This document shows positions 4,007 through 19,594 of a DNA stretch of 53,099 bases, one piece after another; position 1 is the first letter of the stretch; each line of letters opens with the position of its first letter. The DNA lies in NCBI GenBank assembly GCA_001785515.1, contig MFTY01000016.1:1-53099 (forward strand), read 5' to 3'. This stretch comes from Candidatus Nomurabacteria bacterium RIFCSPHIGHO2_02_FULL_35_13 (lineage in GTDB: Bacteria > Patescibacteriota > Minisyncoccia > Phycocordibacterales > UBA9973). A model generated the notes under the pieces. The model saw nothing but the letters and a program-made list of their open reading frames with translations, had not been told where the DNA came from and ran no database searches. Both the position numbers and the translations under genes were made by a program.

Positions 4007-4101
4007 GCGTTCGTTAAAGTTTGGTGTTTTTATAATTTTTAGGTTCGAACTTGATTTGTGGTAAAAAAATTGAACCTTAGAAATTAAGGTTTATTTGCTG
4101 A

Positions 4102-4117
4102 CTCCGGGGGTAGGGAT
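4102..4117. repeat. Copy of the tRNA-Asn 3' end (16-bp direct repeat, with 4301-4316)
   Basis: CTCCGGGGGTAGGGAT occurs here and again at 4301-4316 inside the tRNA-Asn T-arm/acceptor. The 183 bp between hold the terminator, two AT-rich hairpins and another CCCGGAGCC fragment, but no gene. It may be a decayed tRNA piece or a scar of an element that used the tRNA 3' end. Confidence 0.55.
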
Positions 4118-4130
4118 ATCTCCCTCGACT

Positions 4131-4156
4131 AAATTTTTTGTCGTCACAAAAAATTT
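4131..4156. repeat. Perfect 11-bp inverted repeat
   Basis: AAATTTTTTGT, loop CGTC, ACAAAAAATTT. It lies in the gene-free 3962-4297 stretch, which otherwise holds a possible minus-strand promoter, tRNA-derived fragments and a terminator; I see no coding frame there that I trust. Confidence 0.6.
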
Positions 4157-4255
4157 GTCTGGGCACCGATTCGTGGATTTTTACTGTTGTAAAAATCACA
4201 CTCCGTCGTTCGATACCTACACGAAAGCCAAGCAGTTGGTTTTCTCCCCGGAGCC

Positions 4256-4284
4256 AAAAAAATCAAAAACCCACTTTCGTGGAC
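4256..4284 (-). terminator. Terminator after tRNA-Asn
   Basis: On the minus strand: TCCAC, GAAA tetraloop, GTGGG, then GTTTTTGATTTTTTT. The stem is short but the T-run is good, and it sits 14 bases after the encoded CCA. Confidence 0.5.
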
Positions 4285-4297
4285 TTAAGATTTTTAC

Positions 4298-4615
4298 TGG
4301 CTCCGGGGGTAGGGATCGAACCTACGACCAATCGCTTACGCTTATCCTCTTATTACTAAAAGGGACGGACTATATCATATTCATATCTTTAGATTTCTCT
4401 TCAGACTTAGAATCAAGGCGCTTCCCCTGATACATTACCAGAGTACTCCCCGAAGGGATAGTCTCTACACCTTCCCTAAAAATTTTAGGGCTTGGCTCGG
4501 GATTGTCCATAAATGGAGTTCCCCGAATTTACCTTGTTTTATTCAACCTACTTTTCAATAGGAAGCTGCAATATCTATTTTACAGGCGACCGCTCTACCG
4601 CTGAGCTACCCCGGA
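4298..4615 (-). tRNA. tRNA-Asn(GTT), interrupted by a group I intron
   Basis: 5' exon 4615-4582: acceptor TCCGGGG, D-arm GCTC-AGCGGTA-GAGC, anticodon stem GTCGC, then CTGT. 3' exon 4338-4298: TAA, GCGAT, variable TGGTC, T-arm GTAGG-TTCGATC-CCTAC, acceptor CCCCGGA, G and an encoded CCA. Joined, they give a 75-nt tRNA with loop CTGTTAA, anticodon GTT. The joined sequence looks like a normal bacterial tRNA-Asn (TCC start, GGAGCCA end). An alternative splice one register earlier (anticodon CGT, Thr) is possible from sequence alone, but fits the tRNA body less well. Confidence 0.85.
4339..4581 (-). other. Group I self-splicing intron in the tRNA-Asn anticodon
   Basis: 243 nt, no ORF. Conserved core visible on the minus strand: P4 from TCGGG with CCCGA (CAATCCCGAGCCAAG, Q-like), a P6 extension hairpin CCCTAAAA/TTTTAGGG, R-like GTGTAGAGACTA at 4470-4459, and S-like GATATAGTCC at 4376-4367, which pairs with the R side to form P7. 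The last intron base is G (omega-G) and the 5' exon ends in U, as the class requires. GCAG inside the intron can pair with CUGU of the exon as P1. Insertion lies between anticodon bases 35 and 36. Confidence 0.85.
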
Positions 4616-13349: not shown

Positions 13350-13356
13350 TGTTTTT

Positions 13357-13749
13357 GGTCTTGTATCTATAAGCCGAATTCTGTGCCAACTGGCGATAGT
13401 TATTTATCTAGGCCCTCGCTTACGCTCGGGCTCAAGCGATTCTCTACCAATTTTGCCCACCATAAGTGGTGCAAAATTGAGTACCCTGAGCTTGTCGAAG
13501 GGCTCTTCGATTACACTCAGAGCTCTCAATTTTGTAATCGCTTATGGCGAACAAAATTGGAGCACGATCTTGCACATGCGTAGGTATTTTGCCGTTTCAC
13601 CCGAACTTAATCGGTTCGTCACTGTTCTCAACCCTAGGATTACTCCCGACGGGCATTACCCGCTACGTTTGTCCCGACAAGTCGGAACTATGTGTTCGGA
13701 CTTTCCTAACTCCGACCAAAGCCGAAGCTCAACTATCCGATACAGGACC
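13357..13749 (-). ncRNA. rnpB: RNase P RNA with enlarged arm
   Basis: 393 nt. P1 closes GGTC.TGTATC with GATACA.GACC. P4 5' side is AGGAAAGTCCGAAC; the 3' core is GCCTAGATAAATAACTATCGCC and ACAGAATTCGGCTTAT, matching the universal RNase P 3' end. GGGTGAAACGG, TGCAAGATCGTGC and GGTAGAG (the GGU that binds tRNA CCA in L15) are in place. Between the last two there are extra hairpins: two share the outer stem CAATTTTG/CAAAATTG, and between them lies CCCTGAGCTTGTCGAAGGG (13484-13502), a dispersed-type palindrome. RNase P trims the 5' ends of pre-tRNAs. Confidence 0.92.

Positions 13750-18186: not shown

Positions 18187-19594
<1,408 letters not shown>

Follow-up and report, generated by a model that had tools for sequence, protein, structure and literature searches.

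A group I intron between anticodon positions 35 and 36 of a patescibacterial tRNA-Asn gene and its probable kinship to an HNH-homing family

How does a bacterium make tRNA-Asn when the gene is cut within the anticodon? The window analyzed here, the whole 53,099-nucleotide stretch of contig MFTY01000016.1 from Candidatus Nomurabacteria bacterium RIFCSPHIGHO2_02_FULL_35_13, carries a tRNA-Asn(GUU) gene on its minus strand at positions 4298 to 4615, interrupted by a 243-nt group I intron (4339 to 4581) between anticodon positions 35 and 36 (U35 / U36). An initial annotation had proposed such an intron, and two programs bear it out. In its default mode ARAGORN reports no tRNA at 4298 to 4615; with introns allowed, it calls tRNA-Asn(gtt) i(35,243) at exactly that interval. 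The covariance-model search for a group I core that had been proposed as a check yields a full-length match to Rfam RF00028 at 4346 to 4591 (model positions 1 to 253; 65.5 bits, gathering score 50 bits; E = 1.9e-14). That this tRNA-Asn/group I intron structure is real, far beyond chance, is confirmed.

The 5' exon (4582 to 4615; tRNA positions 1 to 35), delimited by ARAGORN in intron mode, matches the corresponding portion of uninterrupted tRNA-Asn genes in congeners with 100% identity and by direct reading ends ...CCTGT, with C32-U33-G34-U35 as its last bases. The 3' exon (4298 to 4338) starts at U36 and reads TAAGCGATT...GGAGCCA, its CCA being genome encoded. The exact 3' splice site is ambiguous at first sight, as it lies near a local duplication (TAAGCG|TAAGCG), and the RF00028 match stops at 4346, short of G4339. 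The 3' boundary has to be G4339, since no other cut restores a tRNA; direct reading identifies this G as the last base of the intron, and ARAGORN, with no G rule imposed, places the boundary identically. A terminal G is present in 98/98 introns examined, whose boundaries were searched under a G requirement; the 5'-exon U was likewise required in the boundary search, and the tRNA structure fixes the same boundary independently. Downstream, CCAC-GAAA-GTGG followed by a T-rich run (4254 to 4282, minus strand, direct reading) is a likely intrinsic terminator of the tRNA transcript. Just beyond the tRNA gene there is also an element of roughly 160 bp (4097 to 4255, minus strand) without an Rfam match, whose complementary ends, CTCCGGGG ... 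CCCCGGAG, resemble the acceptor end of the tRNA and pieces of which are scattered through 14 of 60 relatives, with at most three in any one genome.

Is the insert built as a ribozyme? The features initially ascribed to it, namely a 243-nt length, R-like and S-like elements, a P4/P6 core, a U ending the 5' exon, and a final G, are all present on the minus strand, to which all positions given in this and the next paragraph refer. The internal guide sequence GCAG (4566 to 4569), read directly and found in 84/84 Asn/Asp 35/36 introns examined, pairs with exon CUGU (32 to 35) to form P1, with a U35-G wobble at the 5' splice site. The R element GTGTAGAGACTA (4459 to 4470) and the S element GATATAGTCC (4367 to 4376), both also read directly, form P7 (5' strand, 4458 to 4463; 3' strand, 4368 to 4373), which is essentially invariant and 99.8% paired in 80 introns.

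For the other helices, support was drawn from an alignment of 80 homologous cores, with the partner strand slid as a control. P4 (4522 to 4526 with 4497 to 4501), which encloses P5 (4506 to 4517), is 100% paired with 119 two-sided changes, whereas slid controls reach at most 44% and 21. The P2 hairpin (4547 to 4562) has 92% standard pairs and 97 two-sided changes, compared to at most 54% and 34 in its controls. P3 (5' strand, 4532 to 4536; 3' strand, 4414 to 4418) is 83% paired with 61 two-sided changes, P8 (4379 to 4413) is 82% paired with 55, and within the P6 and P6a region (4469 to 4496) P6a is 85% paired with 150; like P2, all three lie well above their slid-partner controls. A P9 hairpin precedes the terminal G in the Rfam alignment (4346 to 4364), and both P5 and P9 are weak in the family alignment. 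Between P7 and P3, the window copy and many Asn introns have a CCC-TTCG-GGG hairpin, 90% paired where present, that the shorter tRNA-Asp introns apparently lack. The bases 5' of GCAG, which would contribute to P10, are variable and show no clear pairing with the 3'-exon UAA in the window copy.

This anatomy bears on how the intron would be removed. A cut in the anticodon loop is typical of many archaeal tRNA introns, which are taken out by a protein splicing endonuclease and a ligase, and the same could be imagined here. However, the full group I core, with its P1 U-G pair, P7, and terminal G, and a length and HNH-bearing relatives typical of group I introns make this route extremely unlikely. 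A different alternative accepts the core as functional in form and has it depend on a host protein in vivo, for example a synthetase or an RNA-binding protein. Other group I introns are known to require protein help of this kind, and this core is small and AT-rich, with the weak P5 and P9 noted above. The conserved core helices are nonetheless intact, and no candidate factor was identified; we regard host-protein dependence as unlikely, although well short of negligible.

The initial annotation had further claimed that the exons make a normal tRNA-Asn once the intron is removed. This holds, as ARAGORN calls the joined exons alone tRNA-Asn, with a normal cloverleaf, a GUU anticodon, and G73. 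The spliced 75 nt are 100% identical to the uninterrupted tRNA-Asn genes of three congeners (G021, G018, and G003) and 93 to 100% identical to those of 16 congeners; given the identity to intact genes, the exons are not decaying. The locus could still be imagined as a tRNA-Asn pseudogene carrying a dead intron, with a normal tRNA-Asn elsewhere doing the work, and the assembly leaves some room for this, being unclosed (554 kb in 28 contigs, 94.7% complete; probably a metagenome assembly). Against it stand the undecayed exons, the intact intron core, the lack of any second tRNA-Asn among the 28 tRNA matches of the 94.7% complete assembly, and independent genomes that share this arrangement and in which no accompanying intact copy was seen. 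We consider a pseudogene very improbable.

The tRNA count of this genome rests on a covariance-model search; tRNAs for Asn, Asp, initiator Met, and Cys are absent from its 28 matches. Group I introns are found in its tRNA genes for Asn (35/36), Asp (35/36), and fMet (33/34), the last two on contig G000:C20. The Asn, Asp, and fMet tRNAs thus seem to exist solely as intron-bearing genes. As no other tRNA-Asn was found, splicing is probably essential to this genome, about 5% of which is missing and could hold an intact tRNA-Asn. The intron-bearing tRNA-Asp gene (L032 850 to 1260, minus strand, G000:C20) has an unusual T-loop (GTCAGCA in place of TTC-A), and its positions 30 and 40 are probably mismatched; the T-loop is the same in the tRNA-Asp of G058, a member of the same order. 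On that contig (L032 961 to 1755), an intact tRNA-Met sits between the intron-bearing Asp (minus strand) and fMet (plus strand) genes, which are separated by a few hundred bases. Neither the bacterial small SRP RNA (RF00169) nor tRNA-Cys was detected in the 94.7% complete assembly.

We then asked how widely the insertion is distributed, as the initial annotation had suggested looking for it in related genomes. Matches to group I introns occur in 41/60 relatives, many apparently in rRNA. Junction inspection places tRNA-Asn 35/36 introns in ten members of the genus, the window genome included, and in three further genomes of the order (G042, G048, and G049); tRNA-Asp 35/36 introns in six genomes (the window genome, G014, G049, G052, G055, and G058); and tRNA-fMet introns at 33/34 in fourteen cases. 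Within the genus, 10 genomes have the Asn intron and 16 an uninterrupted tRNA-Asn, and none of these was seen with both. On either side of the window gene, the flanking sequence aligns with intronless loci, so that a single locus is polymorphic, occupied in some genomes and empty in others.

A pattern scan of the GTDB 220 species genomes returned at least 113 stretches, those with names being nearly all from Patescibacteria. Among the matches listed, 100 were resolved, 83 in tRNA-Asn and 17 in tRNA-Asp, all cut at 35/36, so that at least 100 public cases join the ten of the genus. As the pattern was written for S elements and 3' exons of the window type, these counts speak to breadth and not to frequency relative to other sites. 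The novelty implied at first for an Asn case at this position needs correction: judging from genome sequences, the 35/36 insertion is common in Patescibacteria and not an oddity. The same distribution bears on the possibility that misassembly joined an intron to a tRNA gene. A chimera is conceivable in what is probably a metagenome assembly of 28 contigs, but the same kind of junction arises independently in the 100 cases resolved among the matches listed, from many studies, and in ten congeners, and the flanks align with empty-site alleles, which renders the chimera practically negligible.

Records named Simkania (L178) and Bacteroidetes (L141) were considered as spread outside Patescibacteria and set aside; since a full-length tRNA-Asn-like match is found elsewhere in each of these two bins as well, the contigs are probably stray. 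A third record, named Elusimicrobia (L169, contig of 99,778 bp), has a tRNA-Asn 35/36 intron among neighbor genes unlike stray Patescibacteria DNA. Here, spread of the intron beyond the phylum is possible.

To what kind of family does the window intron belong? Among the matches listed, 27/83 Asn introns, about a third, carry an HNH-type open reading frame (ORF), as do Asn introns of four relatives (G004, G016, G028, and G029). The ORFs span about 90 to 145 codons, and the two tested both match Pfam HNH. They lie in the P1 loop, between the 5' splice site and the guide sequence, and in 24/25 examined the frame passes through the guide, ending ...TQLP or similar, so that the terminal HNH codons also constitute P1 and P2. 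No HNH ORF was found among the Asp introns examined, and the window intron (4339 to 4581) has no ORF. With no endonuclease of its own, it is best taken for a homing-intron copy that is competent for splicing and presumably immobile.

A tree of 98 introns sets the Asn/Asp 35/36 introns apart from the fMet introns with support of 100/100; the patescibacterial fMet introns also differ in cut position and guide sequence. Within the 35/36 set, at least four changes between Asn and Asp labels are needed, as are 23 changes in endonuclease presence among the Asn introns, on a tree whose bootstrap had not settled and in which many inner branches are weak. Two endonuclease-bearing introns, those of L178 and G004, cluster with the window intron, with moderate sister-group support (91/77 and 90/90). 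From this we infer that the endonuclease was lost in the window lineage rather than never present, and that introns occasionally jump between Asn and Asp genes; the CUGU target shared by both tRNAs would favor both events. We also considered in-frame last HNH codons at the start of the window intron as independent proof of loss, and rejected them since these bases also make up P1 and P2.

The window intron has the anatomy, site, single-copy state, and family membership described above, and we think it highly probable that it is a group I self-splicing intron in tRNA-Asn and an endonuclease-less member of an HNH-homing family, the splicing chemistry and mobility being argued from homology. Splicing would follow the ordinary two-step group I pathway. 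The pre-tRNA is predicted to fold so that exon CUGU (32 to 35) and guide GCAG make P1, with the U-G wobble at the 5' splice site; an external guanosine held at P7 would attack after U35, and the freed U35 would then attack after the terminal G (4339), joining U35 to U36. The GUU anticodon would be made at exon joining, and only from then on would the tRNA be able to read AAC/AAU codons and to receive its G34 modification. Family members would home into tRNA-Asn genes by means of the HNH endonuclease of roughly 105 residues encoded in the P1 loop, and a related lineage would occupy the same site in tRNA-Asp, the CUGU loop being common to both tRNAs.

The window also holds the tgt gene that had been named initially as acting on this tRNA, and its identification stands (18187 to 19575, minus strand; Pfam TGT, E = 2.9e-129). 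The expected substrates of this tRNA-guanine transglycosylase include G34 of tRNA-Asn. As G34 is paired in P1 in the precursor, Tgt would be expected to act after splicing. The protein has an apparent extra segment of about 40 residues within its domain.

A broader proposal, on which our judgment is evenly divided, is that one phylum-wide lineage homes to the CUGU 35/36 site and has moved between Asn and Asp genes several times, that its HNH C-terminal codons double as the guide so that enzyme and guide co-evolve, and that Asn, Asp, and fMet tRNAs all need ribozyme splicing in minimal genomes such as this one. An essential tRNA that gains its anticodon only through ribozyme splicing, in a streamlined genome of roughly 0.55 Mb whose Asn, Asp, and initiator tRNAs all bear introns, would mean that translation relies on several ribozymes. 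The contrast between occupied and empty sites, the versions with and without endonuclease, and the shared target loop offer a natural system for intron invasion, jumping, and persistence after endonuclease loss. Such introns also explain why standard tRNA annotation can report these genomes as being without tRNA-Asn, tRNA-Asp, or tRNA-fMet. Elsewhere in the window, a class A RNase P RNA (13354 to 13748, minus strand, 107 bits) departs from the model by a long insert and shows several non-standard pairs.

Group I introns in bacterial tRNAs for Leu, fMet, Ile2, and Arg have long been known. The tRNA-Leu(UAA) intron of cyanobacteria and plastids, which cuts between positions 34 and 35 and usually lacks an ORF, is likewise a group I intron within the anticodon but differs from the window intron in isotype and cut position. 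Nakagawa et al. 2025 reportedly deal with a novel tRNA insertion site; by the title of that work, its introns share phylum, intron class, and tRNA hosts with the window intron, and it very probably covers this phenomenon. With that work represented by its title, our literature search found no paper on bacterial group I introns in tRNA-Asn or tRNA-Asp, and in the literature searched we found no description of a joint Asn/Asp 35/36 family with an HNH gene reading through the guide. The tRNA-fMet introns of Synechocystis and Gloeobacter and the tRNA-Ile2 introns of Acidovorax and Burkholderia (cited in PMC8450103) are also bacterial anticodon-loop group I introns, in a different isotype from the Asn intron of the window, and the tRNAscan-SE 2.0 paper points out that group I introns conceal the fMet or Ile2 tRNA of some genomes. 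For cyanobacteria, group I introns have been claimed in further isotypes, as here, namely tRNA-Arg, Gly, and Lys (PMC5733544); in the portion of that paper considered, no Asn case is described, and two of the introns span 22 and 49 nt (tRNA positions 39 to 60 and 39 to 87), too short for a group I core. Comparable, too, are the group I introns of CPR rRNA genes (PMC11270868), which share with the present family the same bacteria, the intron class, and endonuclease-driven mobility. Their hosts are rRNAs, however, and their endonucleases are of the LAGLIDADG or GIY-YIG type, whereas the Asn 35/36 family uses a small HNH protein whose gene lies within the P1 loop.
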